Part shown: one piece after another, positions 13,535-19,103 of the stretch
How the letters are laid out: every line of letters starts with the position of its first letter
Numbering within the stretch: position 1 is the stretch's first letter
Assembly (NCBI RefSeq): GCF_025717535.1
Contig: NZ_JAJIRO010000004.1
Location: 186,001-250,000, forward strand
DNA: 64,000 nucleotides
Direction: 5' to 3'
Origin: Paucibacter sp. Y2R2-4
GTDB lineage: Bacteria; Pseudomonadota; Gammaproteobacteria; Burkholderiales; Burkholderiaceae_C
Notes under the pieces: generated by a model
What the model was told of the DNA's origin: nothing
Seen by the model: only the letters and a program-made list of their open reading frames with translations
Databases searched by the model: none
Position numbers and translations under genes: made by a program

Positions 13535-14524
13535 TCAGCGCTTCTTCGCTTGAGCCCGCCAGCGCGCCACGGCAGCCGGCAAGTCGCGGAGGTCGCTCAT
13601 ACAGAACAGGCCCGGCTGCGGCCCGGGCCGGCGCTGTAACAAAGCACTACCGCCAGCCCACAGCTCGATGGCAGGAGGCAGCAGCGCACGTAACTCTGCG
13701 AGCCCACGGCGCACTGCTGTAGCCGACATCAAGCCACTGAAACTCAAGACCAGCACATCGCTGGCATGCGCCGCTGCGGCGCGCGGCAAAGACTCCAGGG
13801 GCGTCTGCACCCCCAGCGACAAGCACTGGCAGCCCTCCACCGCCAGCATCGCCTCCACCATCAACAAGCCCAGACCATGCGGTTCGCCGGGCAAAGTGCT
13901 GAGCAAGACGCGGGGGCGCTCATCGCCATCTTGAGCCGATTGCTGAAGCAGGCTCTGCACCGCCTGACGCAGGCATTGCTGAATGATCTCGGTGTAAATG
14001 TGTTCCTCGAACACCTCCAAGTCCCCGCGCATCCAAGCTTCACCGACGCGAGTGGTCAAAGGAGCCACCACTTGCAAGACGAAGCGACCCAGGCCTTGTC
14101 GCAGCAAGGCTTGGGCCAGCAAACGGCGCAGCTCATCCAGCTGATGCTCGCTCAACATCTGCAGGCAGGAGTCGACGGTCTCGGTCAGTGGCGAATCAGC
14201 GTCAGCCTCCACGCTGACTGAGGCACTGCGAGCCGGCTCTTGCAGCAACTGGCGCAAATCCTCTGCACTGGCAGGCACCACCCGACCGGGCCGATAGCCG
14301 GCATCGATCAGGCGCTTCAACAATCGCAAGCGCTGCACTTGCTCGGCTGGATACACCCGGTCACCCACGGCATCGCGCTGCGGCGTGGGGAAGCCATAAC
14401 GGCGCTCCCAGACGCGCAAGGTGTCCTTGCTCAAGCCAGTGTCGCGCTCGACGGCCGCAATGCCAGCCAAACCGCCAGCGGGCTCCGACTCGGGAGGCGG
14501 TTCAAGGGGTTTCGCGGCAGACAT
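13535..14524 (-). CDS. litR: MerR-type B12-dependent light-responsive regulator (LitR/CarH-like)
   Basis: The 329-residue repressor has an N-terminal MerR DNA-binding domain (GIAAVERDTGLSKDTLRVWERRYGFP, residues 21-46, then GDRVYPAEQVQRLRLLKRLIDAGYRPG). It has a helical bundle and a C-terminal cobalamin-binding Rossmann domain. Both hallmarks of adenosylcobalamin photoreceptors are present: W164-x9-E174-H175 in the helical bundle and E214-P-H216-x2-G in the B12 domain. In this family the B12-bound tetramer represses in the dark, and light breaks the Co-C bond and releases DNA. It is transcribed divergently from the glutathione peroxidase gene, with operator-like repeats in the shared 100-base gap, so autoregulation is likely. 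Light control here is inferred from the motifs. Confidence 0.85.
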   Translation of the reverse strand: MSAAKPLEPPPESEPAGGLAGIAAVERDTGLSKDTLRVWERRYGFPTPQRDAVGDRVYPAEQVQRLRLLKRLIDAGYRPGRVVPASAEDLRQLLQEPARSASVSVEADADSPLTETVDSCLQMLSEHQLDELRRLLAQALLRQGLGRFVLQVVAPLTTRVGEAWMRGDLEVFEEHIYTEIIQQCLRQAVQSLLQQSAQDGDERPRVLLSTLPGEPHGLGLLMVEAMLAVEGCQCLSLGVQTPLESLPRAAAAHASDVLVLSFSGLMSATAVRRGLAELRALLPPAIELWAGGSALLQRRPGPQPGLFCMSDLRDLPAAVARWRAQAKKR

Positions 14525-14543: not shown

Positions 14544-14631
14544 TTTGTCCTAGACAAATTTGAGACAAATCTCAAAAACTGGACTAATATAGTTGCATGT
14601 CGACAATTTGACCAGGACAAACAGTGGACAA
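14544..14631. promoter_or_regulatory. Divergent litR/gpx promoter with LitR-type operators
   Basis: TTTGTC-CTA-GACAAA (14544-14558) is a perfect inverted repeat. It is followed by the perfect repeat TTTGAGA-N4-TCTCAAA (14559-14576). GACAAAT occurs at 14553 and 14564, exactly 11 bases apart. GGACAA occurs at 14615 and 14626, again 11 bases apart. Towards gpx, GAGACA (14562-14567) and TAATAT (14585-14590) with a 17-base spacer make a plausible promoter, and the repeats cover its -35 box. Helical-turn spacing of direct repeats over a -35 element is what CarH-type repressors use. The same TTTGTC-N3-GACAAA box recurs at 15340. Confidence 0.6.
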
Positions 14632-15214
14632 GAGCCAATATTTTGCCGCCCCGCTTCGCCGCCATCTGGCCACCGCACTGTTGCTGGCCAGCGCCGCAAC
14701 AGCCGCCCAGGCAGCGCCTGCAGCCTGCCCGGCTGTGTTGCAACGCGAGATGCCGCGGCTGCAAGATGAAAAACCGCAGTCCTTGTGCCAATACGCGGGC
14801 AAGGTGGTGTTGGTGGTCAACACGGCCAGCTTCTGCGGCTTCACCTCGCAGTACAAGGCGCTGGAGACCTTGTCGTCCCGCTATGCCGAGCGTGGCCTGG
14901 TGGTGCTGGGCTTCCCGTCCAATGACTTTGGCAGCCAAGAGCCCGGCAGCAACAAAGAAATCGCCGAGTTCTGCGAGAACACCTTCAATGTGAAGTTCCC
15001 AATGTTCTCGAAATCGGTGGTCAAGCCCGGCAAACCGGACACCAACCCGCTGTTTGCCGACTTGGCCAAAAGCACCGGCTCCAGCCCCAAGTGGAACTTC
15101 CACAAATACCTGATTTCGCGCGACGGCAAACAGGTGGAGAGCTTTGGTTCGATGACCGACCCGCTCAGCCGCAGCATCACCGACGAGGTGGAGCGACTGC
15201 TGGCCAAGCCCTGA
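14624..15214 (+). CDS. Periplasmic glutathione peroxidase family protein
   Basis: The 196-residue protein has a signal peptide (LATALLLASAATAAQA) and then a complete thiol-peroxidase domain of the GPx family: active-site Cys in NTASFCGFTSQY, Gln in FPSNDFGSQEPGSN, and Trp in SPKWNFHKYLI. A Cys-based enzyme of this type usually uses thioredoxin-like or other thiol donors and removes lipid or organic hydroperoxides. A periplasmic form beside a light-sensing regulator and lipid-modifying enzymes suggests protection of membrane lipids from photo-oxidation. The start is the GTG at 14624, preceded by AGGA at 14614-14617. It is probably transcribed from the operator-covered promoter ahead of it. Confidence 0.85.
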   Translation: MDKSQYFAAPLRRHLATALLLASAATAAQAAPAACPAVLQREMPRLQDEKPQSLCQYAGKVVLVVNTASFCGFTSQYKALETLSSRYAERGLVVLGFPSNDFGSQEPGSNKEIAEFCENTFNVKFPMFSKSVVKPGKPDTNPLFADLAKSTGSSPKWNFHKYLISRDGKQVESFGSMTDPLSRSITDEVERLLAKP

Positions 15215-15339
15215 ACACTGCGCCCCTAGCTCTGCGCCAATACGACCATGACTGCAGCAAACTTCACCGCACCGGCTGAGCTGTCGGGCTACCTGACGGC
15301 TGATACCGACGGCATCCCCAAATTAGGGGATCAAACGAA

Positions 15340-15380
15340 TTTGTCATTGACAAACTCCGTGCGTAAAGTTTGTAAACTTT
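15340..15380 (+). promoter_or_regulatory. LitR-box-like operator over a consensus promoter
   Basis: TTTGTC-ATT-GACAAA (15340-15354) has the same half-sites and spacing as the box at 14544. It contains a perfect -35 hexamer TTGACA (15347-15352), followed after 18 bases by TGTAAA (15371-15376) as a -10 candidate. The -10 region lies inside another perfect inverted repeat, AAAGTTT-GT-AAACTTT (15365-15380). The predicted start is near 15383, ahead of the RNA-like element and the lipid operon. Confidence 0.55.
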
Positions 15381-15382
15381 TG

Positions 15383-15576
15383 CAAACGCAAGCTGATCGC
15401 TTTGAAATTTTCGAAAAGTCGATAGCATTGGTTCACTTACAGCCGCAAAGTCTCCCCAGTGTTGGGGCTGAAATCCAGAAGCCGTTTTCCTCCTCCTCCC
15501 TCCCTCCCTCGTTGGCTTCGGGGCACTTTGCGGCTACTTTTATTCCCAAGGCCTCCGCCGCTGGCGGGGGCCTTTT
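15383..15576 (+). ncRNA. Candidate small regulatory RNA with CCUCC-rich loop
   Basis: No credible protein is encoded between gpx and the FAD oxidoreductase, but the transcript would be strongly structured. An 11-base perfect outer stem joins 15441-15451 with 15525-15535 (AGCCGCAAAGT/ACTTTGCGGCT). CCCC at 15454-15457 can pair with either 15464-15467 or 15520-15523. GAAGCC (15478-15483) pairs with GGCTTC (15514-15519) and displays a 30-base loop containing CCUCCUCCUCCC and further CCCUCC units. An intrinsic terminator ends it at 15576. Loops of repeated CCUCC are complementary to Shine-Dalgarno sequences and are the hallmark of alphaproteobacterial CcsR ('cuckoo') stress RNAs. The 5' end is inferred from the promoter position. 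It could instead be a long attenuating leader of the operon. Confidence 0.55.
15548..15576 (+). terminator. Intrinsic terminator between the RNA element and the lipid operon
   Basis: The stem AAGGCC-t-CCGCC (15548-15559) pairs with GGCGG-g-GGCCTT (15563-15574) around loop GCT and is followed by a T tail. It would end the small RNA and leave the operon dependent on read-through or on a second promoter in the next 140 bases. Confidence 0.8.
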
Positions 15577-15715
15577 CAATTCCACCGCCAAACAATTTGG
15601 CGCCGCCCCCCAGACAAAAACAGCTTTGCTGCGCGAAGCGCGCCAAGATACGGCGGCCGGCCATGCCGAAGCGCTCTTGCCCTTGCTTCAACAACTGGCG
15701 CAAGCCCGCCAGCCT

Positions 15716-17044
15716 GTGACGGGGGCGAAACGGCGGGTCGCCGTGGTGGGCTCGGGCATTGCGGGCTTGTCCGCCGCTTGGGCGCTGAGTTCGCAAGCCC
15801 ATGTCACCTTGTTCGAGGCCGGCGACTACTTCGGCGGACACACCCACACGGTGGACGTCGAATTGGAAGGTCGCCGCCACGGCGTGGACACCGGCTTTCT
15901 GGTCTTCAACGAACGCACCTACCCGCTGCTGATCCAGTTGTTCAAACAGCTCGATGTGCAGGTTGCGGCCAGCGATATGTCCTTCTCGGTGCAATTGCCC
16001 GATCAAGGCCTGGAATGGAGCGGCAGCAATCTGAACAGCGTGTTCGCCCAACGCAGCAATCTGCTGAGGCCGGCGTTCTGGGGCATGTTGAGCGATTTGC
16101 AGCGTTTCAACGCCTTGTGCACCGGCTTGGCTGAACGCGGAGCCGAGGCTGCTTTGGCCCAGCCCATTGGTGAGTTTCTCGACCAGCATCGCTTTGGCAA
16201 AGCCTTCCGCGATTGGTATTTGCTGCCGATGGTGGCGTGCATCTGGTCTTGCCCGACCCGACAGATGTTGGCCTTCCCGATCAGCACCTTGATCCGCTTT
16301 TGCCACAACCATGGTCTCTTGCAAGTGACGCAGAGACCGCAGTGGTTCACCGTGAGCGGCGGCGCCCGGCACTATGTGGACAAGCTCATCGCCGGCATCA
16401 GCGAAGTGCGCTTGAATACCCCGGTGCTGCGCGTCAGCCGTAGCAGCGAAGACTCGGTGCTGGTTTACTCAGAGCGCGGCGCTGAACGCTTTGATGAGGT
16501 CGTGATGGCCTGCCACAGCGACCAAAGCTTGGCCTTGCTGGACCAGCCTAGCCTCAACGAACGACAGATCCTGGGCGCGATTCCCTACCACCGCAATCGC
16601 GCGGTGCTGCACACCGACACCGCGCTGCTGCCGCGCCGCCAGCGCGCCTGGGCCGCCTGGAACTACGAGCATGGCGGCCAGCAAAGCGGCAGCGAACAAA
16701 AGGCCGTCTGCCTGCACTATTTGCTGAACCGTTTGCAGCCGCTGCCCTGGCAGCAGCAGGTGATTGTTTCCCTGAACCCGGTACGCGCGCCGGCGGACAG
16801 CCAGACACTGGCCGAGTTCGACTACGCCCACCCGGTGTTTGACAGCGGCGCGGTCGCCGCACAGGCGAGATTACCGCTGATTCAAGGCCAAAGCCATGTC
16901 TGGTACTGCGGCGCATGGACCCGATATGGTTTCCATGAAGACGGCTTGCTGTCTGGGCTGAACGTGGCCAAGCGCTTGCTGGAGCAATGGACCGATGCTG
17001 ACGCCCAAACCCCTAAGCCGAGCGGAGCCGCGGGCGCAGCATGA
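15716..17044 (+). CDS. FAD-dependent oxidoreductase, COG2907 type
   Basis: The 442-residue flavoprotein opens with the dinucleotide-binding motif RRVAVVGSGIAGLSAAW (about residues 6-22), followed by LFEAGDYFGGHTHTV and GVDTGFLVFNERTYP, and ends with the FAD-contact motif WYCGAWTRYGFHEDGLLSGLNVA. This is the amine-oxidase/desaturase-like COG2907 family found beside DUF1365 and cyclopropane-synthase genes in photo-oxidative-stress regulons. Rhodobacter relatives take part in making furan fatty acids, so a fatty-acyl desaturase role is possible. The GTG at 15716 is chosen. An open frame continues 156 codons upstream without a Met, through the terminator and RNA element, and is not believed. It overlaps the next gene by four bases (ATGA). 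Confidence 0.85.
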   Translation: MTGAKRRVAVVGSGIAGLSAAWALSSQAHVTLFEAGDYFGGHTHTVDVELEGRRHGVDTGFLVFNERTYPLLIQLFKQLDVQVAASDMSFSVQLPDQGLEWSGSNLNSVFAQRSNLLRPAFWGMLSDLQRFNALCTGLAERGAEAALAQPIGEFLDQHRFGKAFRDWYLLPMVACIWSCPTRQMLAFPISTLIRFCHNHGLLQVTQRPQWFTVSGGARHYVDKLIAGISEVRLNTPVLRVSRSSEDSVLVYSERGAERFDEVVMACHSDQSLALLDQPSLNERQILGAIPYHRNRAVLHTDTALLPRRQRAWAAWNYEHGGQQSGSEQKAVCLHYLLNRLQPLPWQQQVIVSLNPVRAPADSQTLAEFDYAHPVFDSGAVAAQARLPLIQGQSHVWYCGAWTRYGFHEDGLLSGLNVAKRLLEQWTDADAQTPKPSGAAGAA

Positions 17045-17856
17045 GTACGGTAAAGACTTGGCCCGCCCAAGCGCTGATCGGTCGCGGTCAGGTGCGCCAT
17101 CGCCGCTTGGCGCCAACGGCCCATGCCTTCGCCTACCGCAGCTACTTCTTGATGCTGCCCCTGCGCGCCTTGCGGCAAACGCCTTACGCCGCTCTGCATC
17201 GGCAAGGCTCAGGTCAGCAGAGCAAGGGCTGGCACTGGCTCAGCTTTCATGATGCCGACCATGGCGACGGTGGCCCTGATTGCCTGGCTTGGTTGGACGC
17301 CTTGCTGCTGCGCGAGGGCGTGGATGACGCGAAGGGCGAAGTTTGGCTGCATTGCTACCCCCGCGTCTTAGGCCACGCCTTCAAGCCGGTGAGCTTTTGG
17401 CACTGCGAGCGCGAAGACGGCTCGCTGGCAGCCATCGTGGTCGAGGTCAACAACACCTTTGGTGAGCGCCATTGCTATTTGCTGCAAGGCCCGGACTTAG
17501 CTTACGGCCGTGAATTGCAAGCTCGCAAGGTCTTTCATGTCTCGCCCTTTTGCCGGGTGGCGGGCCGCTACCGCTTTCGCTTCATGAACAGCAGCGGCCT
17601 GCATGGACAGCATGGCCCGCGCTGTGTGGCGCGGGTCGATCATGAGGACGAGCAGGGGCAGATGCTGCTGCAAACCAGCATCAGCGGCGATTTGCAGCCG
17701 CTCACCGAGGCCTCGGCCCGGCAAGCTTTTATGGCCATCCCCGCGCAAAGCCTGATGGTGGTGGCGCGCATCCACTGGCAGGCTTTACAGCTGTTCCTTA
17801 AACGCATTCCCTTCTTTGGCAAACCTGCCGCCCCCGAAACTCTTGTGACCCGCTGA
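17041..17856 (+). CDS. DUF1365 family protein
   Basis: The 271-residue protein matches DUF1365 in its characteristic stretches RGQVRHRRLAPTAHAFAYRSYFLML, LLLREGVDDAKGEVWLHCYPRVLGHAFKPVSFWHC, VVEVNNTFGERHCYLL, and KVFHVSPFCRVAGRYRFRF. The biochemical role is unknown. The family is almost always next to the COG2907 flavoprotein and a cyclopropane synthase, implying a step in modified membrane fatty-acid formation. It starts inside the last codon of the flavoprotein gene and ends 15 bases before the cyclopropane synthase, so coordinated translation is likely. Confidence 0.9.
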   Translation: MSTVKTWPAQALIGRGQVRHRRLAPTAHAFAYRSYFLMLPLRALRQTPYAALHRQGSGQQSKGWHWLSFHDADHGDGGPDCLAWLDALLLREGVDDAKGEVWLHCYPRVLGHAFKPVSFWHCEREDGSLAAIVVEVNNTFGERHCYLLQGPDLAYGRELQARKVFHVSPFCRVAGRYRFRFMNSSGLHGQHGPRCVARVDHEDEQGQMLLQTSISGDLQPLTEASARQAFMAIPAQSLMVVARIHWQALQLFLKRIPFFGKPAAPETLVTR

Positions 17857-17870
17857 GGGCCTTGCACGCT

Positions 17871-19103
17871 ATGAACACCCGCACGCTCACATCGCGCATC
17901 AATCTGCCCGACAACGCGCCATCCGCCGCCCGCACCGTCTTCAAGTTGCTCAGCCATTTGCGCCACGGCGGCCTGGATGTGCAACTGCCCGACGGCAGTT
18001 CCATGCAGTTCGGCGCCGAAACCGGCCAAGCCCCGTCGCAGCGAGCAGCCTTTCGAATCCGTGACTGGGCGGTCTGTGCTGCCACTTTGCGATCCGGCGA
18101 CATCGGCTTTGCCGAGAGCTATATGGCCGGGCATTGGAGCAGCCCCGATTTGCGCGCCTTGCTGGAGCTGTTCATCCGCAACCGCGAGACGCTGGACGAG
18201 GCGATTTTTGGCTCCTGGTGGGGCTCGGCCTTGCATCGTTTGCGCCATCTGTTCAACCGCAACAGCCGCTCCGGCAGCCGCAAGAACATCCACGCGCATT
18301 ACGACATCGGCAACGACTTCTACAAGCTCTGGCTGGACCCGAGCATGAACTACTCCAGCGCCTGGTTCGACGGCCAAAGCGGCACCCCCTTGACCGAAGC
18401 GCAAAACGCCAAAATGCACCGCGCGCTGCGGGAATGCGGCGTGAGCTCGGGCAGCCGCGTGCTGGAGCTGGGCTGTGGCTGGGGCGCGGTGGCCGAGAGC
18501 GCCACCCGCGATTTCGGCGCGCACCTCACCGGCGTCACCCTCTCGCAAGAGCAACTGAGCTGGGCGCAAGATCGGCTGCAAAGCGCCGGCTTGGCCGAGT
18601 GCGCCGACCTGCGCCTGCAGGACTACCGCGACATCCAGGACCCGGCCTTCGACGCCATCGTCTCGATCGAGATGTTCGAAGCGGTGGGCCGCGAGTACTG
18701 GGACGGCTACTTCAAGACGGTGCACGACAAGCTCAAGCCCGGAGGCCGAGCCTGCATCCAAACCATCACCATCCGCGACGATTTGTTCGATCGTTACAGC
18801 CGCTCCAGCGACTTCATTCAGCAATACATCTTCCCCGGCGGCATGCTGCCCAGCCCGAGCCAGTTCCGCGCCTATGCGAGCAAAGCCGGCCTGCGCATCT
18901 GCAATGAGCTGGCCTTTGGCCAAGACTATGCGCAGACGCTGCACCTCTGGCGCGAGGCCTTTTTGCGCCACGAGGCGCAGGTGCGCGAGCAGGGCTTTGA
19001 CACCCGCTTTGTGCGGCTCTGGGAGTTCTATCTCGCCTATTGCGAGGCCGCTTTCGCGACCGGCAATACCGATGTGATGCAGTTCACCCTGCAAAGAGAC
19101 TGA
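17871..19103 (+). CDS. cfa: Cyclopropane-fatty-acyl-phospholipid synthase
   Basis: The enzyme transfers a methylene group from S-adenosylmethionine to the double bond of membrane unsaturated fatty acids, or is a related methyltransferase. The 410-residue protein has the N-terminal lipid-binding half, then NIHAHYDIGNDFYKLWLDPSMNYSSAWF and the SAM-binding motif VLELGCGWG (near residue 198). The C-terminal part contains FPGGMLPSP and the conserved Cys in YCEAAF. All key motifs are intact and the length is normal. The ATG at 17871 follows GAGGG; a TTG three codons earlier is less likely. It is the third gene of the lipid operon. Confidence 0.92.
   Translation: MNTRTLTSRINLPDNAPSAARTVFKLLSHLRHGGLDVQLPDGSSMQFGAETGQAPSQRAAFRIRDWAVCAATLRSGDIGFAESYMAGHWSSPDLRALLELFIRNRETLDEAIFGSWWGSALHRLRHLFNRNSRSGSRKNIHAHYDIGNDFYKLWLDPSMNYSSAWFDGQSGTPLTEAQNAKMHRALRECGVSSGSRVLELGCGWGAVAESATRDFGAHLTGVTLSQEQLSWAQDRLQSAGLAECADLRLQDYRDIQDPAFDAIVSIEMFEAVGREYWDGYFKTVHDKLKPGGRACIQTITIRDDLFDRYSRSSDFIQQYIFPGGMLPSPSQFRAYASKAGLRICNELAFGQDYAQTLHLWREAFLRHEAQVREQGFDTRFVRLWEFYLAYCEAAFATGNTDVMQFTLQRD

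Follow-up and report, generated by a model that had tools for sequence, protein, structure and literature searches.

The 64,000-nucleotide stretch of Paucibacter sp. Y2R2-4 DNA analysed here (the window) holds a structured RNA element in the midst of a defined gene series. A litR/carH-like regulator gene on the reverse strand (13535-14524) is followed, all on the forward strand, by a glutathione peroxidase gene (gpx, 14624-15214), the RNA, a ufaD-like FAD oxidoreductase frame (15248-17044), a gene for a DUF1365 protein (17041-17856) and a CMAS-type methyltransferase gene (17862-19103). The regulator combines MerR and B12-binding domains (Pfam PF13411 and PF02607); its score with the NCBIfam CarH model is 124 bits, below the 400-bit equivalog cut-off. 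The peroxidase carries PF00255; the DUF1365 protein (PF07103) is ufaO-like, UfaO itself being a DUF1365 protein; the methyltransferase (PF02353) is ufaM/CFA-synthase-like. The conserved domain of the oxidoreductase begins near 15730, and its frame is open straight through the RNA, which for that reason is not plainly intergenic. Beyond the methyltransferase gene come chalcone-isomerase-like, MFS, DUF3833, short-chain dehydrogenase and SnoaL genes on the forward strand, then corA on the reverse strand, then hpf.

The gene kinds downstream of the RNA are those of ufaM, ufaD and ufaO in Rhodobacter sphaeroides (the RSP1091-1087 operon plus ufaM), homology being judged from domains rather than from an alignment to the Rhodobacter proteins. 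According to passages of PMC7380195, R. sphaeroides makes a furan fatty acid with three proteins together: the desaturase UfaD, which has an NAD/FAD-binding domain, the DUF1365 protein UfaO and the methylase UfaM; these passages mention no leader RNA for the ufa operon. Passages of PMC9758184 report a light-inducible ufaM in Pseudomonas, along with LitR-type regulators.

The element itself lies on the forward strand at 15437-15577; from its fold, its covariation and the covariance models, a mature sRNA of about 140 nt is predicted, with ends near these positions. Its outer stem, P1, pairs 15441-15451 with 15525-15535 over 11 bp. Inside it stand P2, a small hairpin (15453-15468; by consensus, 15453-15458 with 15463-15468) that supplies the third stem of a three-way junction with P1 and P3, and P3, a longer hairpin (15474-15523, with 15474-15483 pairing with 15514-15523). 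Part of P3 is the inner GAAGCC/GGCTTC stem (15478-15483 with 15514-15519); the P3 pair 15477-15520 is A-G in the window copy. P3 displays a 30-base loop of CUCC repeats (15484-15513), anti-Shine-Dalgarno-like and unpaired in the fold. The outer stem, the inner stem and the CUCC-rich loop are all as the initial annotation had read them. Below P1, a U-rich linker (ACUUUUAUUCCC, 15536-15547), in which TTT at 15539-15541 is invariant in 36 sequences, may be an Hfq site, and a terminator hairpin follows (15548-15577; stem 15548-15559 with 15563-15574). This had been called a strong terminator; the stem is indeed present and strong, but the U tract is only TTTTC and a terminator scan of the window did not include the hairpin among its calls. 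Folding of the 141-nt element (15439-15579) gives -59.7 kcal/mol, where shuffles average -44.9 (z -3.68); none of 200 shuffles was as stable.

Two alignments of relatives bear on this structure. The first began with 38 loci found by BLAST and kept 36, L033 and L039 being dropped for poor fit; the second, of 70 sequences, took L039 back, and a stricter E-value kept three weak opposite-strand matches out of it. In the 36 relatives the 39-pair, four-helix structure pairs in 93.7% of cells, with changes on both sides in 24 of the 39 pairs; in the 70 sequences, whose sources were hand-picked for diversity, the figures are 92.0% and 37 of 39, counts that lean towards the structure since the set was fitted to the covariance model. 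All four helices contribute: pairs changed on both sides rise from 7 to 10 of 11 in P1, from 5 to 6 of 6 in P2, from 4 to 9 of 10 in P3 and from 8 to 12 of 12 in the terminator stem. P2 is the weakest, with 80.8% and 78.1% of cells paired in the smaller and larger set. Cells with double changes number 155 in the smaller alignment, versus 45.1 in shuffles, and 647 in the larger, versus 181.5; sliding the partners by 1-3 columns in the 70 sequences brings pairing down to 39-46%. RNAalifold, run on the 70-sequence alignment, predicts nearly the same structure, and 34 of its 36 predicted pairs covary. The columns of the CUCC-rich loop are nearly invariant across the 70 sequences. Loci L073-L190 were retrieved by the exact loop string, so that their loop identity is circular; those from BLAST or the covariance model were selected without it. 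The comparison with shuffles and the covariation confirm an RNA structure well beyond chance, and the covarying stems and conserved CCUCC loop that the initial annotation had named as support are both there.

Another way to understand the conservation is to locate it in a protein: the region would then be coding, as an N-terminal extension of the ufaD-like product. The openness of the frame from 15248 is shared within the clade. A ufaD motif lies close behind in 19 of 25 clade loci, and in 15 of the 19, some of them near copies, the open frame reaches 236 nt or more ahead of the loop; in 10 genus loci with ufaD behind, the 183 nt leading up to the RNA contain no stop in the ufaD frame, versus 1-6 in each of the other two frames. 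In one locus (L008) ufaD is in a different frame. Several observations go against a coding explanation, however: codon positions vary about equally in eight pairs, with no third-position bias (window frame, 15248-15715 region); family-wide, the ufaD frame of 73 loci contains 83 stops versus 189 in the other two, and is not specially open; genus loci without ufaD behind (L006, L007, L010 and L013) have 1-3 stops in the frame and still keep the RNA; and 37 of 39 pairs covary. We consider coding very unlikely as the sole explanation. Probably the RNA is the older feature, and the open frame is a leader or extension, specific to the clade, that came to overlie it. Nor does the DNA itself offer a credible account. 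The loop consists of pyrimidines throughout and its complement shows repeats of GGG, and a quadruplex or triplex of that G-rich strand might affect transcription; but the flanking helices covary as RNA, with the loop exactly between them, and there is hardly any chance that a DNA-level element is what has been conserved.

Against Rfam 15 at gathering thresholds, neither the window nor 12 relative loci gave any match. A permissive scan of 341 bases returned ar14 (RF02344) at 26.3 bits, the rest being at chance level. The initial annotation had compared the loop with those of the cuckoo, or CcsR, RNAs, and as far as the loop goes the comparison is apt: it is an exposed 30-nt anti-Shine-Dalgarno-type CUCC loop, unpaired and nearly invariant. 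The ar14/NfeR1 and cuckoo/CcsR RNAs likewise combine an unpaired CCUCC-type anti-Shine-Dalgarno loop with variable, covarying stems, and the CcsR RNAs respond to oxidative stress, as passages of PMC8625941 and PMC10746234 have it; the NfeR1/ar14 hairpins carry ultraconserved CCUCCUCCC anti-Shine-Dalgarno loops (PMC10746234, in part). Is the window's RNA then a divergent member of this alphaproteobacterial group? The RF02344 match runs over its whole length and includes a similar CCUCCUCC loop. The score falls well short of the 58.8-bit gathering score, though; the motif sits in one long loop in a three-way junction (P3 only), whereas ar14/cuckoo RNAs present CCUCCUCCC in three hairpins (passages of PMC10746234); and CcsR-like RNAs adjoin a DUF1127 gene (the CIN1 locus), whereas the immediate neighbours here, small ORFs lying outside the comparison, are gpx and the ufaD-like gene. 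The RNA also has its own covariance model, and in 229 class genomes this model found members in the host family and nowhere else; in the samples searched it is limited to one betaproteobacterial family, and cuckoo/CcsR RNAs are alphaproteobacterial. Membership is highly improbable and is treated here as refuted.

S17 of Bordetella and bdhR1 of Burkholderia are betaproteobacterial sRNAs. As described in parts of PMC11722255, they resemble the window RNA in a C/U-rich stretch that is conserved and could pair with ribosome-binding sites. Identity with them was rejected: their model, RF02278, gives no match at the element even at E 5, and its two copies above cut-off in the window's genome lie elsewhere (L230 and L231; G000:C2:638901-638963 and C4:65690-65752). 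No description of the RNA was found among open-licence papers, the part of the literature that the searches covered, and no passage with promoter terms was found in PMC6852236. We call it a new RNA family, one that by analogy would work like the anti-Shine-Dalgarno cuckoo RNAs without being a member of them.

The family is common among close relatives. BLAST with the element finds it in 14 of 18 genus genomes and 80 of 399 family genomes; a covariance model built from 36 sequences finds the RNA in 266 of the 399 host-family genomes, representing 103 of 141 genera. Two matches occur in G161 and in G299, and one in every other positive family genome. Wider samples gave matches in 8 of 300 order genomes (both covariance models) and 3 of 229 class genomes, all in the window's own family and none outside it, in searches whose stricter filters drop weak matches and may miss distant relatives. 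The exact loop string occurs in at least 118 stretches of named genomes. Hosts among the matches listed include Roseateles/Paucibacter/Pelomonas/Mitsuaria, Rubrivivax, Azohydromonas, Polaromonas, Hydrogenophaga and Aquabacterium, among others; Rubrivivax gelatinosus is a named, cultured carrier. NCBI taxonomy places Roseateles (the target of the name Paucibacter) in Sphaerotilaceae and Polaromonas in Comamonadaceae. Two metagenome-assembled genomes are odd cases: one titled Methylotenera has a Roseateles-like locus and may be mis-binned (L101), and one from Myxococcales has the loop string and lacks the locus genes (L095).

What accompanies the RNA was tallied at 137 loci (117 of them exact-loop-string loci, near copies included, the Myxococcales locus left out). 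The neighbour downstream is a ufaD-like gene in 73, corA in 40 and some other gene in 12, with the last 12 out of reach; on the upstream side gpx is next at 49 loci, litR at 39 and some other gene at 32, and 17 are out of reach. The tally supports the original placement of the RNA beside lipid-protection genes and ties it to litR and gpx. In the 40 corA-linked loci, corA is convergent and the ufaD-like gene absent, and the RNA and its loop are retained. The RNA belongs to the litR/gpx/ufaD-ufaO-ufaM-like locus, yet is kept in many genomes without ufaD there.

This distribution weighs on a purely local explanation, in which the RNA is a cis-acting attenuator of the ufa-like operon: junction and terminator would gate the passage of polymerase into ufaD, perhaps under the governance of a protein or ligand bound to the CUCC loop, and there would be no trans role. 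The ufaD-like gene is after all the commonest next gene, and the terminator stem covaries even as its U tract stays short. Such an attenuator would have no ufaD to control in the corA-linked loci, however, and the persistence of RNA and loop there argues for a trans role. We regard attenuation as a rather unlikely account.

Control of the RNA appears to differ between the window and most of its relatives. In the window, a palindrome (TTTGTCATTGACAAA, 15340-15354), a candidate LitR operator, overlaps the -35-like hexamer of a sigma70-like TTGTCA-N17-TAAAGT pair (15341-15369, forward strand; 9 of 12 match). To that extent the LitR-box-like promoter proposed earlier survives; its -10, on the other hand, shows no conservation among the other genus rows, and the pair was rejected as sole promoter on that ground. 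A GTAAA-N5-GCAAA box follows (15372-15386, forward strand), a candidate regulator site with a similar box in several genus rows, and then a candidate proximal promoter, TTTGAA-N16-TAGCAT, read by eye (15401-15428, forward strand). A TA-rich -10-like hexamer lies 12-13 nt before the RNA in all nine non-redundant genus rows, in the window as TAGCAT at 15423-15428. This by-eye comparison of genus rows leaves out L015-L017, L019 and L043-L072, and so do the upstream-region counts given below (repeats; L015 is a weak second match), which omit L095 as well. Family-wide, the CpxR-like form of the box, GTAAA-N5-G(C/T)AAA, occurs in only 3 of 115 upstream regions (0.08 expected); some other genera have a TTTAC-rich stretch before GGAAC, placed much like the box in the window.

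Three places in the window's genome match the palindrome (TTTGTCNNNGACAAA) exactly: one in the litR/gpx promoter (14544), the one at 15340-15354, and one inside an unrelated 695-aa reading frame, which was taken as chance. The litR/gpx promoter holds two such palindromes (14544-14621), that at 14544 exact and that at 14607 with one mismatch, and of 22 loci viewed, many have the palindrome or a near form in their litR/gpx or litR promoter. A palindrome pair of the TTTGTCCTAGACAAA plus TTTGACTAGGACAAA type frames a -10-like sequence, CTAATATAG, between litR and gpx in many relatives. The pair is a good candidate for a betaproteobacterial LitR operator. The palindrome (TTTGTCNNNGACAAA) is unlike the class II LitR site given for Pseudomonas PmlR2 in passages of PMC9758184, TGTACA-N12-TGTACA. 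Near the RNA, by comparison, the palindrome is rare: among 179 upstream regions, 2 have an exact site (the window's own and that of L195; 0 expected), 4 a site with one mismatch (0.3 expected) and 12 a site with two (1.5 expected). Most of those in relatives precede the RNA by more than 230 nt, and several stand beside litR.

What most relatives have instead is GGAAC(T/C)-N15-19-TC(A/C/T), which we take to be the shape of an RpoE-type ECF promoter. It is present in 73 of 115 non-redundant upstream regions, versus 3.1 expected from first-order Markov shuffles, and plain GGAACTT in 52 of 115, versus 1.8 expected; the RpoE-type motif was not found in the window's own upstream region. Rubrivivax gelatinosus is among the hosts with the GGAACTT version. 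The RpoE-dependent sRNAs of enterobacteria, MicA and RybB, offer a parallel to the GGAACTT-type -35 and TC-type -10 of most relatives; the RNA differs from them in structure and loop, its window copy does without the motif, and its RpoE control is predicted. In a few members of the Roseateles group (L032, L036, L088, L124, L126 and L140) the conserved pattern before the RNA is of the GGGTTTNNACC type and the G(T/A)GTACAGT- or GGTAAAGT type, not GGAACTT; it is perhaps another promoter type. LitR control is plausible in the window's species and its close kin; the rarity of the palindrome near the RNA in relatives means that it is not the general wiring. The B12- and light-type wiring of the initial annotation is thus retained in part, through the palindrome common to the litR/gpx promoter, and gives way to the RpoE-type motif in most relatives.

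The CUCC-repeat loop resembles the anti-Shine-Dalgarno end of 16S rRNA. In the perspective that we develop, to which we give an even chance, the RNA is an sRNA derived from a leader: it would mask Shine-Dalgarno sites in trans, and leaky termination would supply the lipid operon. The structured RNA would be made at the head of the stress locus, with transcription beginning a short way before it. Most relatives would use an RpoE-type ECF promoter for this, and the window's genus would use promoters of sigma70-like form that LitR may repress; the usual end would be the terminator hairpin. The three-way junction would keep the CUCC loop open as a mimic of the ribosomal RNA end; the loop would pair in trans with Shine-Dalgarno sequences, so that under stress a group of mRNAs is translated less. 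With so short a U tract, the terminator would let some polymerases through into the lipid-protection operon, and one signal would yield both the RNA and the enzymes. Trans action on ribosome-binding sites is suggested by the loop, its exposure and conservation, and the corA-linked loci; leaky termination by the short U tract and its position. These features suggest that the RNA adjusts how much protein is made when the cell is under light or oxidative stress.

In support of the leader-derived sRNA are the covariation with its controls, the nearly invariant unpaired loop and the single match in nearly every positive genome; the frequency of the RpoE-type motif in relatives and the palindrome shared with the litR/gpx promoter; and the CCUCCUCCC loops of NfeR1/ar14 (passages of PMC10746234). 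Against it stand the null complement scans, the terminator, with its weak U tract and its absence from the terminator scan, the lack of an RpoE-type motif in the window, the rarity of the palindrome near the RNA in relatives, and the ufaD frame running through the RNA in the window's clade. In the complement scans of the window's own genome, nine-base complements of the loop before ATG were not enriched (3 versus 1, and 5 versus 6, in reversed controls). This speaks against long perfect targets and is compatible with short seeds.

The same null result lends something to a different reading of the loop, in which it acts as a sponge that takes up a ribosomal factor or a protein binding C/U-rich RNA, with no pairing to Shine-Dalgarno sites. 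A nearly invariant loop would suit a protein partner, as would the lack of enriched long complements; but complement scans would miss short seeds, the anti-Shine-Dalgarno sequence is itself CCUCC, and pairing with mRNAs is what is predicted for known RNAs whose loops are of this type (PMC10746234, in part). A protein-binding role strikes us as unlikely.

A further possibility, and a doubtful one, makes the RNA a switch with two products, in which the translation state of the leader selects between the lipid operon and the terminated RNA. Ribosomes on the ufaD-like leader frame, which in the window's clade crosses both the RNA and its terminator, would unfold the junction and suppress termination, and the lipid-protection operon would be expressed; failed translation, or a start at the internal promoter, would give the terminated RNA, whose CUCC loop would block ribosome binding elsewhere. 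If such a switch exists, translation state would choose between protective enzymes and damped protein synthesis under photo-oxidative stress.

The finding adds an RNA family that lies outside Rfam 15, by its thresholds, and is detected by a covariance model in two thirds of the sampled family genomes, with an anti-Shine-Dalgarno loop tied to a locus of the litR/gpx/furan-fatty-acid type. Cultured carriers such as R. gelatinosus make it directly testable. If the leader-derived sRNA functions as proposed, alpha- and betaproteobacteria would meet the same kind of stress with one device, an RNA that mimics the mRNA-binding end of the ribosome, built on RNA architectures and promoters that differ between the two.
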